Part shown: in pieces, positions 13,938 through 32,633 of the stretch
Position numbering within the stretch: the stretch's first letter is position 1
Layout: each line of letters starts with the position of its first letter
NCBI GenBank assembly: GCA_031278225.1
Contig: JAITKT010000085.1
Location: 1 to 32,633 of the forward strand
Reading direction: 5' to 3'
From: Deltaproteobacteria bacterium
GTDB taxonomy: Bacteria; Desulfobacterota; Desulfarculia; Adiutricales; Adiutricaceae
Length of the DNA stretch: 32,633 nt
Position numbers and translations under genes: made by a program
The notes under the pieces: model-generated
Seen by the model: the letters and a program-made list of their open reading frames with translations, nothing else
What the model was told of the DNA's origin: nothing
Databases searched by the model: none

Positions 13938-15140
13938 ATGAAGTTTGAAGATGGAGATACCGAACAATTCTTCAAAACCGTATGGCCTCATTTACCTAAA
14001 CCTCAACGAAGGGTAGTAGCGGCAGCCTACAGTAAGAAATTAGGATATGGCGGCGTATCATATATCAGTGGCATATGTGGCCTATCAAGAGTTACTATCA
14101 CTAAAGCAATGAAAGAACTTGAAGAAGAACCTCTAGAATTTGGCAGGCTTCACAGACCAAGTGCGGGGAGGCCTTCACTGGTAACATTAGAACCAGCTAT
14201 AGTAGAAGCGATTCTTGAAATAGTAGAAGAAAGTACGAGTGGTGACCCTCAGGCAGCCAGATTATACACTTTGAAAAGTACAAGAATAATTTGCCGTGAG
14301 TTAGAGGACAGAGGACACTCTATTAGTCATACCAAAGTTGCACAAATACTGAAGCAAGAAGGATATACTCTTCAAGGTAATTTTAAATCAGATGAAGGGG
14401 CCTGTCATATTGATAGAGATGCTCAGTTTAAATTCATAAATAGGCTAATAAAGGAGGCAATGAAAAAGAATCATCCTATCATATCTGTTGATACAAAGAA
14501 GAAAGAATTAATCGGCAATTTTGACAACAAAGGAAAACAATGGCGAAAGTCATACCATCCTAGAATAGTTAAGGGCCATGATTTTCCTGGACCAGATATT
14601 CCTATTGCGCATCCATATGGCATCTATGATCTTAACCACAATATAGGTTTTGTTAATATAGGCACTGATCACGACACAAGTGAATTTGCTGTAAACTCCA
14701 TAAAAGGATGGTGGAAACACGTAGGTAAAAAAATATATGCTAGTCCTGAAAAGCTGATAATCACAGCTGATTGTGGAGGTTCAAATGGGTATAGAAATCG
14801 CATGTGGAAATATAAGTTAAAAGAATTGGCCAATTATATAAATTGCGAGATAAACGTTGCCCATTTCCCTCCTGGAACCTCAAAGTGGAATCGAGTTGAA
14901 CATAGACTATTCTCCTTTATATCAACCAACTGGAAAGGTGAACCATTGGTTGATTATGAAACTGTGGTTAATTTGATTAGTGCTACCACAACAGTGACAG
15001 GATTAAAAGTAACTTGTGTATTAGATCATAAGAAATACAACACTGGGAAAAAAGTAACCGATGAACAGATGGCTACGATAGATTTACGTCGGTCTAATTT
15101 CCATGGAGATTGGAATTATTCAATTTTTCCGAACAAATAG
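13938..15140 (+). CDS. ISAzo13-family transposase
   Basis: 400 residues, full length for the family. An N-terminal helical DNA-binding part (VSYISGICGLSRVTITKAMKEL, an HTH, then RPSAGRPSL) is followed by the DDE core: first Asp in ISVDTKKKELIGNF, second in LIITADCGGSNGYR, the Glu in SKWNRVEHRLFS. The C-terminus HGDWNYSIFP is the family ending. No internal stop or frameshift, so probably active. Codon use is AT-rich, unlike the neighbouring genes. Confidence 0.95.
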   Translation: MKFEDGDTEQFFKTVWPHLPKPQRRVVAAAYSKKLGYGGVSYISGICGLSRVTITKAMKELEEEPLEFGRLHRPSAGRPSLVTLEPAIVEAILEIVEESTSGDPQAARLYTLKSTRIICRELEDRGHSISHTKVAQILKQEGYTLQGNFKSDEGACHIDRDAQFKFINRLIKEAMKKNHPIISVDTKKKELIGNFDNKGKQWRKSYHPRIVKGHDFPGPDIPIAHPYGIYDLNHNIGFVNIGTDHDTSEFAVNSIKGWWKHVGKKIYASPEKLIITADCGGSNGYRNRMWKYKLKELANYINCEINVAHFPPGTSKWNRVEHRLFSFISTNWKGEPLVDYETVVNLISATTTVTGLKVTCVLDHKKYNTGKKVTDEQMATIDLRRSNFHGDWNYSIFPNK

Positions 15141-15757: not shown

Positions 15758-17353
15758 TCACCACTCCGGTATTTGAAATCCGAAAGCCGAAAAAATTTCT
15801 TTTTGATCCGGCGTGAGAGGCGTGGATATCGTATCTCCCTTTATGCGCATTATTTGACATCCTTTCAATATCATCAACAAATCCCACACATTCCATTTCT
15901 CGCGCAGACCGGTTTTTGTCATGACATTGTCAATTTCCGCAATCAAAATAAGAGATATGAAAGAAACAAACCTTGTGTTATTCATGAAAGTTTTGTTTGG
16001 CTGTTTATTGGTTTCGGGGCCAATAAAATATTCTGACCTTTCCAATGCTTCTTCCATGACGCGTTTGGAGCGGTATGTTCGCAGAGCCTCTTTGGGGTCG
16101 CGAATGAAATTGCCGACGGACACCATCCAACCCCAACCCGAGTCGGCCAGATTTTTCTTCATGACGTCTTCTTTTATTTTAACCGTTAAACCGGATTTGT
16201 TTCCGGATGTTTTATTGATTGTCAAATACTTCTTAATCTCGGGATAGTGTCTTTCGTCGCATTGACCCGATAATACCATGTCTTTTAAGAGAGAAGCGCT
16301 TGCGTGAAATTTGTTCCACAGACCACGCGTCAAATCGGCGTTATAAAAAATATGCGCGTGAATTTCATGCTTGTTGTTCCACAACTTGTTTAAGGTAACG
16401 GCGTAAAGCCCGCCGTTGCCGATGGCCATGGCGTTTTCGGGCGGATCGATGCCGTTTTTTTCGTTTTTCACCAAATCTTTGGCGAATTTCATCGTGAGCG
16501 GAATCGGAATCATAAATCTCGTTTTGTCCGCGTCCTTCAACAACGAGTCAATGTTTGTTTTGTTCGCGAAGCCTTTGTCCGGGATGATTGCCATGTTTGA
16601 CGACTTATGGCCCAATTGGGCGGCAAGTGAAGTTTTAAGGGCAATCGCGTCATTTGGAGCTCCGTCATATGTCATTTGAAAGACCGGAAGCCTTGACTTT
16701 TCGTCCACGACGAGATAAATGTTTTCTTTGGGCCGTTTTTCGTCATCTTCGCCATACATCAGAGGAATTATTCCCAGGAATTCCGAATAAGACGAATCCG
16801 CGGTCATGTCAAGCGCCAAGAGTTCGCTCGACGATATTTTTTTCGCCCATTTTTCGTAAAATGAGATTGTGTCGCGCTCGGTGAAGGACATAAGGAATTT
16901 TTTAATCGTTCGCGAGGAAAGACCCTCGGCGTCAACACAGGTATTGGCATTCAACCAAAAATCGAAGAGCGCCATCGGCTCCGCGGTCGCCGCGACATAA
17001 CAGGCCAAAGCCATTATCCGTTCGCGCAAACGGGGCAGACATGATTTCAGAGTCTCCGAGAGGCCGATGGAATCGGCGATATTGTTCAGAAAATAATTCA
17101 CACCGTATGTTTTGGTGGTCGCGTTTCTCACGTCCTCGACGCCATAACGCGTTTCTTCGTTTGAATCCTCTTGTTTTTCGGCTCGCCCCGAACGTTCAAA
17201 GTATTCCCGATGGAAAACTTCCTGTCCGGTTTTGGGATCCACGCGTCCCACGCGTCTGCGGACATTTACGGTTTTTCCGTTTTCATCGAGATACGATGTC
17301 AATTCGTACAAATAAGTGTGTTTTCCCGATTTGCGTTTCACGACGCGCGTCAT
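15758..17353 (-). CDS. IS1634/IS4-type DDE transposase
   Basis: 531 residues, uninterrupted. It begins with the basic strand-rich N-terminus usual for IS1634-type proteins (KSGKHTYLYELTSYLDENGK...RRRVGRVDPKTG), then a DDE core with the first Asp in LALDMTADSSYS, the second in IIPDKGFANKTN, and the Y-x-x-x-R-x-x-x-E-E helix YRSKRVMEEALERS carrying the third acid. ATG start with GGGGAG about 9 nt upstream. G+C (about 40-45%) is between that of the ISAzo13 element and the host. It should move the element by cut-and-paste. Terminal inverted repeats were not found by eye, so element ends are open. Confidence 0.9.
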   Translation of the reverse strand: MTRVVKRKSGKHTYLYELTSYLDENGKTVNVRRRVGRVDPKTGQEVFHREYFERSGRAEKQEDSNEETRYGVEDVRNATTKTYGVNYFLNNIADSIGLSETLKSCLPRLRERIMALACYVAATAEPMALFDFWLNANTCVDAEGLSSRTIKKFLMSFTERDTISFYEKWAKKISSSELLALDMTADSSYSEFLGIIPLMYGEDDEKRPKENIYLVVDEKSRLPVFQMTYDGAPNDAIALKTSLAAQLGHKSSNMAIIPDKGFANKTNIDSLLKDADKTRFMIPIPLTMKFAKDLVKNEKNGIDPPENAMAIGNGGLYAVTLNKLWNNKHEIHAHIFYNADLTRGLWNKFHASASLLKDMVLSGQCDERHYPEIKKYLTINKTSGNKSGLTVKIKEDVMKKNLADSGWGWMVSVGNFIRDPKEALRTYRSKRVMEEALERSEYFIGPETNKQPNKTFMNNTRFVSFISLILIAEIDNVMTKTGLREKWNVWDLLMILKGCQIMRIKGDTISTPLTPDQKEIFSAFGFQIPEW

Positions 17354-23617: not shown

Positions 23618-25690
23618 TCAGCCCTCCATGCTTTCCTCGTAATCCCTGATGAGAGCGTGGGCCTCCTCGCTCGTTTTGACCTTTCTCAGCTCGTCCTTGA
23701 AATCGTCAAGGCGCAGGATGTTCACGAGATTGAAAAAGGCCCTCATGTGGGTTTCCTCGTCAATGGCGCTGAATGAGCAGACGAGATCCACCGGCTCGTC
23801 CGACGTCTCGTCGTATGACACCCCCTCGGTGAGTCTTATGAGAGCCATGCCGACCTGGAGCGCCCCTTCGCTTATCGCCGCGTGGGGCAGGGCGAATCCC
23901 TTGGATATGACGACGTAGGGACCGTTTTCCCTGATGTTGTCTATCATCGCGGAAATGTATCGGCTCTCCACCCGGTTTTTGTCCAGAAGCATCTGGCCGG
24001 ATTTTCTCACCGTGTCTTCCCAATCCTCGCAGCGGACGTCCAAACGGATGAATTCCGGGGAGAGAAGGTCGGAAAGTTTGGGGGACAAAGAATGTTTGTT
24101 GTCCTTGACTCCCAACATTTCCTCCAGGACGAGATTTATGTCGGAAAGCAGATCCCTTCCGTCCCGGGGGAGGTATTTCGTCACCAACGGCGTTATTTTT
24201 TGGATTATTTCCTTTCCGCCGATTAAAGATCGCCTTTTTTTGACCGCTATCTTCTTTTTGATTCTCAGGGAATCCGCCTTCTCGGAGATTTTTTGGAAGT
24301 CCTCGTCGGACAAAAAGGGCGAAACGAGCACGGATTCCGCTTCCGCGTCCAGTATGGGAACGGTGGTGATGATGAGATCGATGTCCTCTTTTTTGAGGTT
24401 TTTGGCCTCGTGCTCGAAAATCACCGCGCGGACGTCATAGGTCGAATATTTTCTGAGCTTGGCGTGAAGCAGTTTGGAAGTGCAGATTCCCCCGTGGCAG
24501 ACGAGAGCCACCCTCAAGGGCGCGACGTTTTGTTTCGCCCGTTCCATGGCCGCGCAGACGTGGATGGTTATGTAGGTGAGCTCCATGTCCAGGGCGTCGG
24601 GGTTTATGAAGTCCCCGAAGACCCCGACGTTCGCCTTGACCGCCTCGTGGACCTCTTTGTTTTTGTTCAGGATGTCCTGGGCTTCCGGGATCTTGGGCAT
24701 GAAGGAGTTTTTGTTGGACGCCACGGAACTCACGTGGGCGCAGAGGTGCCCGTGGAAGTCGTAATCCTCGAGGAGATCGATTTTCAGGGCTTTCGAGACG
24801 TTTTCTATGAATTTGCTCGTGAGAAGCTGAATCTTCAAGGCGTCTTTGTTTTGGGTTTTTCCTCCGGCGTATTTGCAGGTCTCCAAAATTTCGGCCAAAA
24901 AACGTTCTTCGTCGTCGTTGGGAACAAACCCGCGATGACGGCTCAGGGCGAGGACTATGTCCCTCGCGAGGGCCGCCTTGTGCCCCGCGACTGGCGGCCG
25001 CGGCTCCATCGGAAAACCGTTCGCGATTCTCCCGACCATGACGTTCAAATACAAACTCACGTAGGAGAGGGACTCGTCGGTCAGTCTCAACTCCCGAAAC
25101 TTCTCTTCCCCCCGCATGATTTTCAGGATCGTCTCCCGTTCCCCGGGGTCGGCGTCCGCGAAGACGCCCGAGTCGAAACTCGTGATTTCGGCGCCGCGCG
25201 CGGCGGCTATTTTCAAAATGAGTTTTCTCGCGTCGCTTTCCCGGGCCTCGATTCTCATGCCCTTGTTGGGGTGGGAAATCACCCTGACGCCGTTGGATCT
25301 CAAATAATTTTTAACCCCGTCCAGGTCGTTTATGACGGTTTGTCTCGAAACGCAGAGTTTTTCGGCCATGGTCGAAAGGGTGACGTGCCCGGGGGCGGTG
25401 AGAAGGAGGAGCGAGGTCAGGAGTTTTCGCTCCTCTTTGGAGAGCCTGTAGGTTTGGAAGTCCTTTTTGTCGAGGTGAAGCGCGACTTCCCGGAAATCGT
25501 CCCCGGCGACCACGCGGCCGGCCTTCCCGATCGCGGTTTCGGAAAGGCCCCTGGATTTCAAAAAATCGTTTATCTCCGCCAAATCGTTTCGGATGGTGCG
25601 CTCGGAAACGGCGTGTTTTTCCGCGAGCGACGCGATGGTCTCGTGTCCCCTCAAAAGATCCCGGGTTATCGAAACGGTTCTTTTCTTCAA
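23618..25690 (-). CDS. PRD-containing transcriptional activator with EIIB- and EIIA-like domains (LicR/MtlR type)
   Basis: 690 residues. Domains in order: winged HTH (about 1-55), second HTH (about 80-140: TMAEKLCVSRQTVINDLD), PRD1 (about 190-295), PRD2 (about 300-390), EIIB-like domain with Cys398 in VCHGGICTS, and a mannitol/fructose-type EIIA domain with His603 in GFALPHA. In relatives, phosphorylation of PRD, EIIB and EIIA sites by HPr and EII components sets activity, so the protein reports on sugar and PTS flux. By eye PRD2 keeps histidines (DFHGHLCAH; ITIHVCAAMER) whereas PRD1 lacks an obvious one. The N-terminal HTH pair means DNA binding, not the RNA-binding CAT domain of antiterminators. 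TTG start overlaps the gatY stop (TTGA), so translation is coupled. It very likely controls this operon. Confidence 0.9.
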   Translation of the reverse strand: MKKRTVSITRDLLRGHETIASLAEKHAVSERTIRNDLAEINDFLKSRGLSETAIGKAGRVVAGDDFREVALHLDKKDFQTYRLSKEERKLLTSLLLLTAPGHVTLSTMAEKLCVSRQTVINDLDGVKNYLRSNGVRVISHPNKGMRIEARESDARKLILKIAAARGAEITSFDSGVFADADPGERETILKIMRGEEKFRELRLTDESLSYVSLYLNVMVGRIANGFPMEPRPPVAGHKAALARDIVLALSRHRGFVPNDDEERFLAEILETCKYAGGKTQNKDALKIQLLTSKFIENVSKALKIDLLEDYDFHGHLCAHVSSVASNKNSFMPKIPEAQDILNKNKEVHEAVKANVGVFGDFINPDALDMELTYITIHVCAAMERAKQNVAPLRVALVCHGGICTSKLLHAKLRKYSTYDVRAVIFEHEAKNLKKEDIDLIITTVPILDAEAESVLVSPFLSDEDFQKISEKADSLRIKKKIAVKKRRSLIGGKEIIQKITPLVTKYLPRDGRDLLSDINLVLEEMLGVKDNKHSLSPKLSDLLSPEFIRLDVRCEDWEDTVRKSGQMLLDKNRVESRYISAMIDNIRENGPYVVISKGFALPHAAISEGALQVGMALIRLTEGVSYDETSDEPVDLVCSFSAIDEETHMRAFFNLVNILRLDDFKDELRKVKTSEEAHALIRDYEESMEG

Positions 25691-26553
25691 ATGTCCACCC
25701 CGACGTTCGGTTTGACGTTTTCCGGAGGGATTCTTCCCGCGCCGCCGCAATTCGCGATCCGGCTTTCCGCGCGGTTTTTGACCGCCTCCATGGCCACCTT
25801 GAGGTATTTTTTGGGGTCCGTCGTCTTGGGATCCCTCGCGAGACTGTCTTTCACGGCCTGGGTGAATATGACCCGGAGGTCGGTCGCGTAATTCACCTTG
25901 GTGACGCCGTTTTTCACCGCGGCCCTGACCGCGTCGAAGGGAACCCCCGAGGCCCCGTGAAGGACCAGGGGAATTTTCGCTTTGTCCCGAATGGCCGCGA
26001 GACGGGCCAGATCCAATTTCGGTTCCTTTTTGTAAAAGCCGTGAGCCGTGCCCACCGCGACGGCGAGGGAATCCACGCCGGTTTCCCCCGCGAAGGCGGC
26101 CGCCTCCCCCGGGTCCGTGAGGCCGTCCCCGGACAAGCCGGAAAGGTCGTCCTCTTTTCCCCCGATGGCGCCCAGTTCGCCCTCGACGGGGATCCCGCAG
26201 GCCCGGCAAACCCTCACCACGGATTTGGTGAGTCTGACGTTTTCGGCGAAATCCAAGCGGGATCCGTCTATCATGACAGATGTGTAGCCCGCCCGCAAGA
26301 CCCGGACCGCGAGCTCGAAGGAGTCCCCGTGGTCCAGGTGAAGGGCAACCGGGACCCGGACGCCGTCCGCGAGGGATTTGACCATCGCGGCGAAGATTTC
26401 GGGCCCCGCGTGCCGGAGGGTCCCGGGGGTGGTTTGGATTATGACCGGGGCTCTCATGGCCTCCGCCTTTTCGATCGCGGCGATGACCATTTCCATGTTC
26501 TCGACGTTGAAGGCGCAGACCCCGTAGCCCCCGAGGCTTGCCTCAATCAACAT
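25687..26553 (-). CDS. gatY: class II tagatose-1,6-bisphosphate aldolase, catalytic subunit
   Basis: 288 residues from the first ATG (26553). It is the zinc aldolase that cleaves tagatose-1,6-bisphosphate to dihydroxyacetone phosphate and glyceraldehyde-3-phosphate with GatZ as partner. Zinc and catalytic motifs are seen: HLDHGDS, the ELG of VEGELGAIGG, GTAHG and LHGASG; IGGKEDD and NYATDLR are family blocks. The homologous start lies eight codons upstream: E. coli GatY begins with eight residues before the Met of KQML, and here the corresponding codon (26577-26575) is ATC, preceded by GAAAGGA at good distance, whereas the ATG at 26553 has no spaced ribosome site. Either ATC is used as a rare start, or a base error hides an ATG. 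A class II fructose-bisphosphate aldolase is the alternative reading, but the neighbouring gatZ argues against it. Confidence 0.92.
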   Translation of the reverse strand: MLIEASLGGYGVCAFNVENMEMVIAAIEKAEAMRAPVIIQTTPGTLRHAGPEIFAAMVKSLADGVRVPVALHLDHGDSFELAVRVLRAGYTSVMIDGSRLDFAENVRLTKSVVRVCRACGIPVEGELGAIGGKEDDLSGLSGDGLTDPGEAAAFAGETGVDSLAVAVGTAHGFYKKEPKLDLARLAAIRDKAKIPLVLHGASGVPFDAVRAAVKNGVTKVNYATDLRVIFTQAVKDSLARDPKTTDPKKYLKVAMEAVKNRAESRIANCGGAGRIPPENVKPNVGVDI

Positions 26554-29100: not shown

Positions 29101-30474
29101 CTATTGAGCCGCGACTTCCCGGGCTTTCAGGGCCGCCGCCCTCTGTCTCGAGAGCTTGACCGCGAAGAACCAGCAGAAGACGTAGACCGCCGCGACCAAA
29201 ATCAGGGCGAACATGTCCTTTCCGCTCATGAACATCTCGGTGTAAACGTAGGTTATGGGGCAACCGCCCTGGTCCAGGGCCGCGATCTGGGTGTCGGGGC
29301 TGATGGAGTTCGTGGCGATTCCCATCTGGGTCACCCAGCCTATGGTCTTGTTCGCCACCCAAATGGTGAAGTACATGATGACGACGCCCGAAATTAAGGA
29401 CCTGAAGAGGTTCCCCTTGTGGACGGCGACGGCTATGGCGATGAAGAATCCGATGGTGGCGAGATCGCCGAAGGGCAGGATGACGTTTCCGGGGACGATT
29501 ATCGCGATGAGTATGGTCAGGGGGATGAAGATGAGGCCGGTCGTGACGACCTGCGCGTCCCCGAGGAGGATGGCGGGGTCGAGACCGATGTAGAACTCGG
29601 AATTGCCGCCGTATTTCTTGGTCAACACCTCCTTGGCCCGCTCCGAAAGCGGAAGGAGTCCGTCCATGATGCATTTCACGACCTTGGGCATGAGGACCAT
29701 GACCGCGGACATCTTGACCCCGAGCTGGAGGGCCAGTTTCGCGTCGTAACCGGCCAAAAAGCCGACCACGGCGCCCAGGACGCCGCCTATGACGATGGGC
29801 TCGGCGAGAACCCCGACCTTCTCGTGGAGGGTGTCGGCGGTGAAGTCAATCTTGTTGATCCCCGGGATTTTCTCCATGACCCAGTCGGTGAAACAGGCGA
29901 CCGGGGCCATGTAGGCCGAGGTTCCGTGGGGAACCGTGAGCCCGTCGAGCTCGAAATAGTCCTTCATGAGCGGCGCCCAGAGGTCCCCGAGTTTGTAGGC
30001 GATGACGGCGTGGACGATGACCCCGACGACGCCTATGGCGAAACTTCCCGTCGCGGTGTAGGCGATGGCGCCGGTGAAGGTCATGTGCCAGATGTTCCAG
30101 ATGTCGATGTTGATGACCCTCGTGAGCTTGAAGAAAAGCATGATGAGGTTCACCGCTATCGCTATGGGGATGGCGACCGTGGCTATCTTGGTCGCCCAGG
30201 TGATGGGAGAGGCTCCGGGCCAACCCACGTCGACGACGCTCAGGGTGAGTCCGAAGTTCTGGGACATCGCGGTGGCGGCGGGTCCGAGCTGCTCGTTCAT
30301 CATGCCGACGATTAAGCCCAGACCCACGAAACCCACGCCGACCATCAGTCCCGAACGAATGGACTTGCCGACGGAAACCCCGACCGCCACGCTTAAAATG
30401 GCGAGGACGATCGGGAGCATGACCGACGGCCCCATGGCGATCACGTAATTGATGATGTTTGCGAATATTTCCAT
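29101..30474 (-). CDS. gatC: PTS galactitol transporter EIIC
   Basis: 457 residues, an integral inner-membrane protein with about 10-12 hydrophobic segments (for example MLPIVLAILSVAVGVSVG, LMVGVGFVGLGLIVGMM, VAIPIAIAVNLIMLFF, GLIFIPLTILIAIIVPGNVILP). It forms the galactitol channel and works with phospho-GatB to release galactitol-1-phosphate in the cytoplasm. Family blocks are VDVGWPGASPITWATKIAT, NIWHMTFTGA, DPAILLGD and VPGNVILPFGDLATIGFF. The C-terminus is basic and cytoplasmic. It starts 27 nt after the gatB stop. The substrate is inferred from the family and from gatD/Y/Z beside it; a related polyol cannot be excluded. Confidence 0.95.
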   Translation of the reverse strand: MEIFANIINYVIAMGPSVMLPIVLAILSVAVGVSVGKSIRSGLMVGVGFVGLGLIVGMMNEQLGPAATAMSQNFGLTLSVVDVGWPGASPITWATKIATVAIPIAIAVNLIMLFFKLTRVINIDIWNIWHMTFTGAIAYTATGSFAIGVVGVIVHAVIAYKLGDLWAPLMKDYFELDGLTVPHGTSAYMAPVACFTDWVMEKIPGINKIDFTADTLHEKVGVLAEPIVIGGVLGAVVGFLAGYDAKLALQLGVKMSAVMVLMPKVVKCIMDGLLPLSERAKEVLTKKYGGNSEFYIGLDPAILLGDAQVVTTGLIFIPLTILIAIIVPGNVILPFGDLATIGFFIAIAVAVHKGNLFRSLISGVVIMYFTIWVANKTIGWVTQMGIATNSISPDTQIAALDQGGCPITYVYTEMFMSGKDMFALILVAAVYVFCWFFAVKLSRQRAAALKAREVAAQ

Positions 30475-30501: not shown

Positions 30502-30783
30502 TTAAATGTTCAGAACGTCCAAAATCGCCTTCTCCGTCGCCTCGACGCCGACGCCGGAAATAAAGGGCATTCCCGTTATGATCGGCACCCCGTAGTCCCT
30601 TTTAACCTTGGATGTCGTGACGATTAAAGAGACTCCGGTGAGATTGGATTCGATTTCCGAGATCCGGATCTGATTGATTTCGACGTCGATTCCGTTTTTT
30701 TTGCAAAGTTCGGCCACCTTGCTCGCCGCCACCGTGGAGGTGGCCACCGCGCCGCCGCAGGCGACGATTACCTTTTTCTTCAT
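30502..30783 (-). CDS. gatB: PTS galactitol EIIB
   Basis: 93 residues, the usual size. The phosphorylated Cys9 lies in the first strand and loop, VIVACGGAVATSTVAASKV, almost identical to E. coli GatB. It accepts phosphate from GatA and donates it to galactitol at GatC. The end GMPFISGVGVEATEKAIL is also family-specific. Its ATG overlaps the gatA stop by four bases (ATGA), so translation is coupled. Confidence 0.96.
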   Translation of the reverse strand: MKKKVIVACGGAVATSTVAASKVAELCKKNGIDVEINQIRISEIESNLTGVSLIVTTSKVKRDYGVPIITGMPFISGVGVEATEKAILDVLNI

Positions 30784-31244
30784 GTCTGCTCCTTGTCCCT
30801 GATGATTTTCACGACTTCCTCGCCGGTCGCGCTTTGTCCGATTCTCGCGAGAACCGATTTGTCCTGAAAAATCGTCAGGATTTGCTGCATTTTCGCCAAA
30901 TGCGCTTTGGCGTTTTCTATGGCCAACATAACGACAATCCGCGCCTCGACGGGACTGTCCTCGGTACCCATTTGCGTGAAGACGACGGGCGTCTTCAAAA
31001 CCCCGAGAGCCATGCCGGATTTGACGACGTGCGTGACGTCCGTGTGGGGCATGGCGATTCCGAATCCGTCGATGTCTATTCCCGTGGGGAATTCGGATTC
31101 CCTCTTTTTCAAAGCCCCGACGAAGGTTTCCTTGCAGTAACCCTTGTCGACGAGCTTTTGTCCGATTGTTTCCATGACGTCGTCCGAACTTTCGGCTTTC
31201 ACGTCCGTGAGTATGAGATCGATGTCAAGTTCTTCCCAAATCAT
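30780..31244 (-). CDS. gatA: PTS galactitol EIIA
   Basis: 154 residues. It receives phosphate from HPr on His67 in the block GFGIAMPHTDVTHV and passes it to GatB. Fold and motifs are those of the mannitol/fructose-type EIIA superfamily (ETFVGALKKRESEFPTGI at the N-terminal side, QILTIFQD near the end). The ATG at 31244 is chosen over the open upstream frame because homology starts there and GGAGG lies about 9 nt upstream. It is the first gene of the operon. Immediately upstream are a hairpin (31271-31298) and a 22-nt palindrome (31310-31331). Confidence 0.95.
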   Translation of the reverse strand: MIWEELDIDLILTDVKAESSDDVMETIGQKLVDKGYCKETFVGALKKRESEFPTGIDIDGFGIAMPHTDVTHVVKSGMALGVLKTPVVFTQMGTEDSPVEARIVVMLAIENAKAHLAKMQQILTIFQDKSVLARIGQSATGEEVVKIIRDKEQT

Positions 31245-31270
31245 AAAACCTTTTCCTCCGAGAGAAATTT

Positions 31271-31298
31271 CGACCCGAATGTAAACGAATCCGGGTCG
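31271..31298 (-). promoter_or_regulatory. stem-loop close to the gatA ribosome site
   Basis: CGACCCG (31271-31277) and CGGGTCG (31292-31298) form a 7-bp stem with a 14-nt loop ending about 27 nt before the gatA ATG. It may affect ribosome access or pair alternatively with the palindrome region upstream. Confidence 0.45.
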
Positions 31299-31299
31299 G

Positions 31300-31331
31300 A
31301 AAAAAAAGTCAAAATCATCGCGATGATTTTG
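31300..31331 (-). promoter_or_regulatory. 22-nt perfect palindrome followed by T8 upstream of gatA
   Basis: CAAAATCATCG is followed directly by its exact reverse complement (31310-31331). On the operon strand two bases (AC) separate it from eight T (31307-31300). It can be read as an operator for a dimeric regulator, the PRD protein being the obvious candidate, or as a weak leader terminator (9-bp AT-rich stem, CGCG loop, T-run). The ATG of gatA is 66 bp away. Confidence 0.6.
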
Positions 31332-31337
31332 GAAAAC

Positions 31338-31358
31338 ATTCGGACCGGTACCCCGAAT
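31338..31358. promoter_or_regulatory. second inverted repeat upstream of gatA
   Basis: ATTCGG (31338-31343) and CCGAAT (31353-31358) with a 9-bp centre, 7 bp from the palindrome. The half-site spacing suits a dimeric DNA-binding protein. No convincing -35/-10 pair was found nearby. Confidence 0.35.
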
Positions 31359-31764
31359 CGTCCGGAAACGCCCGAGGGGCAGCCTCGGGACGTTCGCGGC
31401 GGATGACCCGCTTCCGCGGGCCGGGGTCGAAACCGCCTTTTTCGTCGGGGTTTCCGGGCGCCGAAACGCCCTTGTGGTTTTTGACGGCGGAAAAACGCGG
31501 TTGTTTCTCCGCCGTTCCAAACCCTTCTCGAGTTCGCCGAAGCGATTTCGGGCTCCTGATGGAATGGGGCCGGGTCGGAGAGGATTTGGCGGGATTCCCG
31601 TCGGGTCCGGGTCGGTTTCGGCTTACCGCGCGAAACCTGACCGGCGGTTTCGGATCGACGTTCGCAATCGAGGAGTGACGGCATCGCCCGGGAGGGCTCC
31701 GCCTCGCGCAAAACATATAATCAGTGTTTAATAGCATCGATTGCGGCGGAAAAAAAGTCAAAAG

Positions 31765-31792
31765 ACGTTCACGAAATCGTGAAACGTTTTTT
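31765..31792 (+). terminator. possible bidirectional terminator
   Basis: ACGTTCACGA (31765-31774) pairs with TCGTGAA-A-CGT (31777-31787, one bulged A), followed on the plus strand by six T (31787-31792) and on the minus strand by TCTTTTGAC and a further T-run. It could end transcripts from either side, though no flanking gene is evident. Confidence 0.5.
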
Positions 31793-31859
31793 GTCGTTAT
31801 GTTTAAGCGAAAATCGGCTTGTCATGGTGATTCCGGGACAAGCCGGGACAAGGATTGGC

Positions 31860-31934
31860 GGGGAAAGTCCACTCTTCGGGGGAAAAACCGACGGTCCCGT
31901 TTTTTTGGGATTTTCTCGGTTTTTGACTTTCCCC
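31860..31934. repeat. nested three-stem hairpin
   Basis: Outer arms GGGGAAAGTC (31860-31869) and GACTTTCCCC (31925-31934), inner arms AAAAACCGA (31883-31891) and TCGGTTTTT (31916-31924), apex TCCC/GGGA (31895-31898 with 31907-31910). The two 3' arms are contiguous, while 13 nt (31870-31882) bulge on the 5' side. All arms are exact complements. Confidence 0.7.
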
Positions 31935-32497
31935 TTCGGAGATTTCCGTTTCCTCGAAGCTTGAAAACGGAAAACTCTTTGGAAATCATAAAGCCCCCGG
32001 GAGTTTTCAGTCTTTGATCGCACTCAATTAACCGCTTCGTTAATTTTATGAACGACAAAGTGTTTTTACCCAATCCGGTTTTTTGAACAACTTTTGATCC
32101 CGGACAAGCTGGTAACATTTTTTTCGATTTTTCCGGGGGTAGTTAAAATTTTTATTTTTTTTAAAGTTCGTTTTTCTTTTCGACCGCCAATCAAGGCTTT
32201 CGGGCGCGCGCCCCGGGCTTCGCGCCCCATGCCCGCCGGTTTCGCGGGGATCGCGGGTTTTCGAACTTTTCCCCCAAGTGTTCCCGAACCTCGAACATGA
32301 CCCCCGTTTCGCCGAAAAGGGGCGAATTCCCGCCGCCCGAAACCAATGGTCGCCGCGGGCTCCGCGAACGCGAAAAAATTTCGGGGGTTTGGGACTCTCG
32401 GCGGTCTTTGTCCCGTTTTTCCCCGTTTTTCCAAGGGAATTTTTTCGAGGCGGATTTCACCATTTTGGTTGGCGACAAAAAATTATTTTGAAAACTT

Positions 32498-32516
32498 TGA
32501 TTTTAAGTTAAAATCA
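32498..32516. promoter_or_regulatory. AT-rich 19-bp palindrome
   Basis: TGATTTTAA, a central G, then TTAAAATCA: nine base pairs each side without mismatch, in an AT-rich patch. Its half-sites contain the same AAAATCA heptamer as the gatA palindrome, in opposite relative order. It could be an operator for a gene beyond the window's right end. Confidence 0.4.
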
Positions 32517-32633
32517 CTTATTTTAAACGATGTTGGCTTAATTTCGGGCGCAATCACCGATCCGACGGGTCAAAGACGCCCGTCGCCCGACCCCGCGGGG
32601 TCTACGGCCCGGACCCGCCGACCGGGCGCGAAT

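Follow-up and report, generated by a model that had tools for sequence, protein, structure and literature searches.

The hairpin cluster in the non-coding spacer upstream of gatA is real and goes beyond chance. Tentatively, and with somewhat less than even confidence, we read it as part of a lineage-specific, hairpin-rich terminator/5'-leader region (~31270-32060), which would lie ahead of the gat operon and act at the RNA level.

Setting and composition of the hairpin cluster

The window, i.e., the whole stretch of 32,633 nucleotides analysed here, is one complete contig (C305) of a draft genome (3.05 Mb, 499 contigs, ~78% complete), and the contig end (32633) falls inside the spacer on the side away from gatA. 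Its relatives may be Adiutrix-type bacteria from termite guts. To the left of the spacer, a galactitol-type PTS operon for sugar uptake is encoded on the minus strand. Past gatC, the gene order continues with a galactitol-phosphate dehydrogenase-like gene and a gatZ/kbaZ-like gene, followed by the Mga/PRD-type regulator and ptsI (Table 1). The window also carries a transposase gene with an ISAzo13-type DDE domain (13938-15140) and another transposase gene at 15758-17353, whose IS1634-like match was slightly below the cut-off.

Table 1. Coordinates of the spacer, its hairpins and the neighboring genes in the window
Feature	Position	Strand	Basis or remark
Non-coding spacer upstream of gatA	31245..32633 (1389 nt, to contig end)	.	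no ORF with coding score; ORFs tested had no Pfam match
Overlapping inverted repeats, cluster as first reported	31765..32045	.	
Bidirectional terminator-like hairpin: A-tract, one-bulge stem, T-tract	31761..31791	.	-12.1 kcal/mol on +, -9.1 on -
9-bp hairpin CGGCTTGTC/GACAAGCCG	31815-31823 + 31837-31845	+	exact arms
Nested hairpin, 10 + 9 + inner pairs	31860..31934	+	exact arms and fold
Outer arms of nested hairpin GGGGAAAGTC/GACTTTCCCC	31860-31869 + 31925-31934		
Arms enclosed in nested hairpin AAAAACCGA/TCGGTTTTT	31883-31891 + 31916-31924		
9-bp hairpin TTTCCGTTT/AAACGGAAA	31943-31951 + 31965-31973	.	exact arms
Alternative pairing GAAAACTC/GAGTTTTC, 8 bp	31970-31977 + 32001-32008		overlaps hairpin 31943..31973
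7-bp hairpin AATTAAC/GTTAATT	32026-32032 + 32039-32045	.	exact arms
22-bp perfect palindrome CAAAATCATCGCGATGATTTTG, terminator-like or operator-like	31310..31331	.	- strand continues as ACTTTTTTTT
Hairpin CGACCCGGATTC...GGGTCG, directly upstream of gatA start	31271..31298	-	U-rich tail weak
gatA (PTS EIIA), first gene of operon downstream of spacer	30780..31244	-	
gatB, probable	30502-30783	-	assigned from position and size
gatC (EIIC-GAT)	29101..30474	-	
Mga/PRD-type regulator gene, same gene cluster as gat	23618-26209		

All inverted repeats named in the sequence-only reading were found, at the positions it gave or at most one base off, and the repeat at ~31971-32007 proved to have arms of 8 bp, not 7. 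The bulged hairpin around 31764-31788 has the form GACGTTCACG-AAAT-CGTGAAACGTT, and both the tandem duplication of CCGGGACAAG and the later related CCCGGACAAGC are present. The six stem-loops described in that reading exist as repeats, but they cannot all form simultaneously because the repeats overlap, arms 31965-31973 and 31970-31977 having bases in common. The structured stretch, from ~31270 to 32060, exceeds the limits first drawn for it.

Excess over chance and the genome background

Exact non-overlapping arms of at least 7 bp amounted to 44 bp, compared with 11.6 in dinucleotide shuffles (z 3.97, reached by 0/60 shuffles), by which an equal repeat density in shuffled sequence was rejected. 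For exact repeats, the cluster ranked first among 309 sampled intergenic 281-nt windows of the same genome, a comparison that covered ~40 of the 499 contigs and in which the cluster's own window had been picked post hoc. Folding of 31755-32060 (306 nt) gave z-scores of -4.95 on the plus strand and -4.65 on the minus strand, with none of 100 shuffles as good; within the limits of the sequence-only reading the values were -3.6/-4.1, and the core 31855-31984 by itself was less exceptional (z -3.41, equalled by 2/200 shuffles). Low fold z-scores were obtained on both strands in adjacent windows from 31245 to ~32085, a stretch of ~800 nt.

In this genome, intergenic windows on average already fold better than their shuffles (mean z -0.65 to -0.95), and for exact repeats their mean z is +0.49. 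Four windows elsewhere in the genome (L101, L086, L085, and L088; second contig sample) had more extreme combined fold scores, and strong hairpins in other non-coding regions included a textbook terminator (L101) and hairpins located just ahead of genes (L085 and L088). The cluster is the upper tail of a genome-wide continuum, not a separate class. This background favors a mostly neutral explanation, by which the cluster would be an extreme of the general inverted-repeat richness of non-coding DNA in this genome, together with one or two ordinary terminators and no integrated function. The lack of conservation in relatives and of a G-U excess, both described below, agrees with it as well, whereas the first rank among 309 windows for exact repeats and the low scores of all adjacent windows speak against it. 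We regard such a neutral spacer as possible, if doubtful, and as nearly as likely as a terminator/leader region.

Terminator-like hairpins and a putative gat leader

The terminator-like hairpins on the minus strand, towards gatA, are those at 31761-31791 (terminator-like on both strands), 31310-31331, and 31271-31298. Hairpin 31761-31791 has the stable stem and following T-tract of an intrinsic terminator, and its succession of A-tract, stem and T-tract resembles intrinsic (Rho-independent) terminators, including bidirectional ones; on the minus strand it is followed by TTTTGACTTTTTTT (31763-31750). The minus-strand T-tract after the palindrome 31310-31331 is a further likeness. Unlike such terminators, only some of the cluster hairpins have a T-rich tail, and terminator-like sites in the region showed no excess (5 observed vs 5.6 expected from shuffles). 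The 14-nt TTTTGACTTTTTTT is identical at 31301-31314 and 31750-31763 on the minus strand, immediately after two different hairpins. Of just five genomic occurrences of TTGACTTTTTT, two are in this spacer, and CGGGACAAGC was not enriched in the genome (12 vs 17 for reversed controls).

If the region is a terminator/leader, a minus-strand transcript heading for gatA, which could be the leader of the operon itself or could read through from an upstream gene lying past the contig end, would fold into the hairpins, and those with U-rich tails (31787-31750 and 31331-31301) would end or pause transcription before gatA. Hairpin 31761-31791 could also stop plus-strand transcripts. This reading, for which we infer transcription, its direction and its termination, is favored by the hairpin excess on both strands across 31245-32085, by the terminator-like hairpins with T-tracts on the gatA-ward strand, two of which share the 14-nt tail, by the position of the spacer directly upstream of gatA and by the strong hairpins seen in further non-coding regions of the genome; against it stand the terminator-like site count at shuffle level, the weak promoters and the similar folding of both strands with no G-U excess. 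No convincing promoter was found: the best sigma-70-like scores, at 32482-32527, barely exceeded the maxima of shuffled sequences and would imply a leader of ~1.2 kb, and a sigma-54 pattern was absent. The spacer resembles structured 5' leaders (attenuators and riboswitches) as structured non-coding DNA that adjoins an operon and has terminator-like hairpins on the operon strand, and it differs from them in having no Rfam match, no conservation and no competing antiterminator in the folds.

The minimum-energy fold of 31755-32060 reached -110.4 kcal/mol on the plus strand vs -98.9 on the minus strand, and G-U pairs were not above shuffles on either (plus, 13 vs 14.2 expected; minus, 6 vs 8.9 expected). 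Because both strands fold about equally and G-U pairs are not enriched, no single transcribed strand is indicated, and the result is as compatible with DNA-level repeats as with RNA.

Homologues, relatives and the remaining alternatives

Rfam searches at gathering and relaxed thresholds returned no family match, the best weak hit (suhB, E 0.23) lying outside the cluster, and ARAGORN predicted no tRNA or tmRNA for the hairpin cluster. By DNA search, the cluster is single-copy in its own genome (~78% complete) and has no match in 60 related genomes, plasmids and phages. In 60 relatives and 63 class genomes, nothing was found with a covariance model built for the core (31855-31984); weak relatives could be missed by this model, which was built from one sequence and used with stricter filters when more than 40 genomes were scanned. 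The proposal of a structured RNA or regulatory element in the sequence-only reading survives in part: a regulatory element is plausible from the position and the terminator-like hairpins, and conservation as a structured RNA is unsupported, given no Rfam family, no DNA homologue in the 60 relatives and no core-model match in up to 63 genomes. Its other proposal, a mobile element, and likewise a MITE, for which additional copies were sought in the genome and on mobile replicons, are not supported, given the single copy and the lack of plasmid or phage matches.

A protein-level scan of genome contigs identified 23 gatA relatives with an alignment as query and nothing with the single gatA sequence. 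Comparison of their loci with the spacer by blastn and nhmmer gave no convincing similarity. The relatives G001 (z near -5), L117, and L119 have a strong fold at 400-1000 nt upstream of gatA, and no comparable fold was seen at this distance in G008, G015, G020, and L121. Because these four relatives have no such fold and the folds share no sequence similarity, a position-conserved structure was not accepted. L117 and L119 have ~140 nt of alignable DNA upstream of gatA in common, and a promoter-like box close to GTATATTGC, ~110 nt before the gatA start codon, is common to five related genomes with homologous gat operons (L117, L119, L118, L115, and L120); in this alignment, the box is missing from the window and G001.

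Several other elements were observed at these loci. L117 contains a MITE-like arrangement (L117:3000-3320) in which a near-perfect inverted repeat of ~20 bp (ATTACCCGTTTAATT...AATTAAACGGGTAAT) surrounds ~110 nt. In G001, the non-coding stretch ahead of gatA contains tandem AAAGYCAGAGCYT-like units of ~13 nt (L019:6000-6115), and a Mob_Pre (plasmid recombination) gene lies ~1.1 kb upstream of gatA (L019:6920-8905); in the genome to which the window belongs, a different contig (C345) carries a relative of this gene.

A structured plus-strand RNA, with a hairpin at its 5' end and a multibranched domain (31792-32057) that is closed by GUCGUU/AACGAC, appears improbable. The minimum-energy fold closes the entire domain and is slightly stronger on the plus strand; however, the z-scores are similar on both strands, G-U pairs stay at shuffle level, Rfam and the core covariance model (up to 63 genomes) gave no relative, and no good plus-strand promoter was found on the 5' side. 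We give a similarly small chance to a structured RNA not yet described (~300 nt, plus strand, 31755-32060) or a large regulatory gat leader, either one limited to this species or to very close relatives that have not been sampled; a structured RNA of such narrow range may exist, though the comparative searches gave nothing in its favor. Still less likely are DNA-level operators for a gat regulator, for example the Mga/PRD-type protein encoded in the same gene cluster: the palindrome close to gatA, which does not recur in the genome when up to 2 mismatches are allowed, would suit such a role, but the arms of the reported hairpins differ in sequence from each other and so do not represent a set of repeated sites for a single protein. 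A CsrA-binding sponge RNA of the CsrB/RsmZ type was rejected, since none of the plus strand's 10 GGA motifs (4.5 expected) is fully unpaired in the minimum-energy structure, and Rfam gave no match.

If the spacer is ordinary, the finding has little import, and inverted-repeat clusters here mirror a genome-wide tendency of non-coding DNA and need to be judged against that background. If the terminator/leader region is a transcribed leader, it would suggest that an uncultured group regulates a sugar PTS operon at the RNA level.
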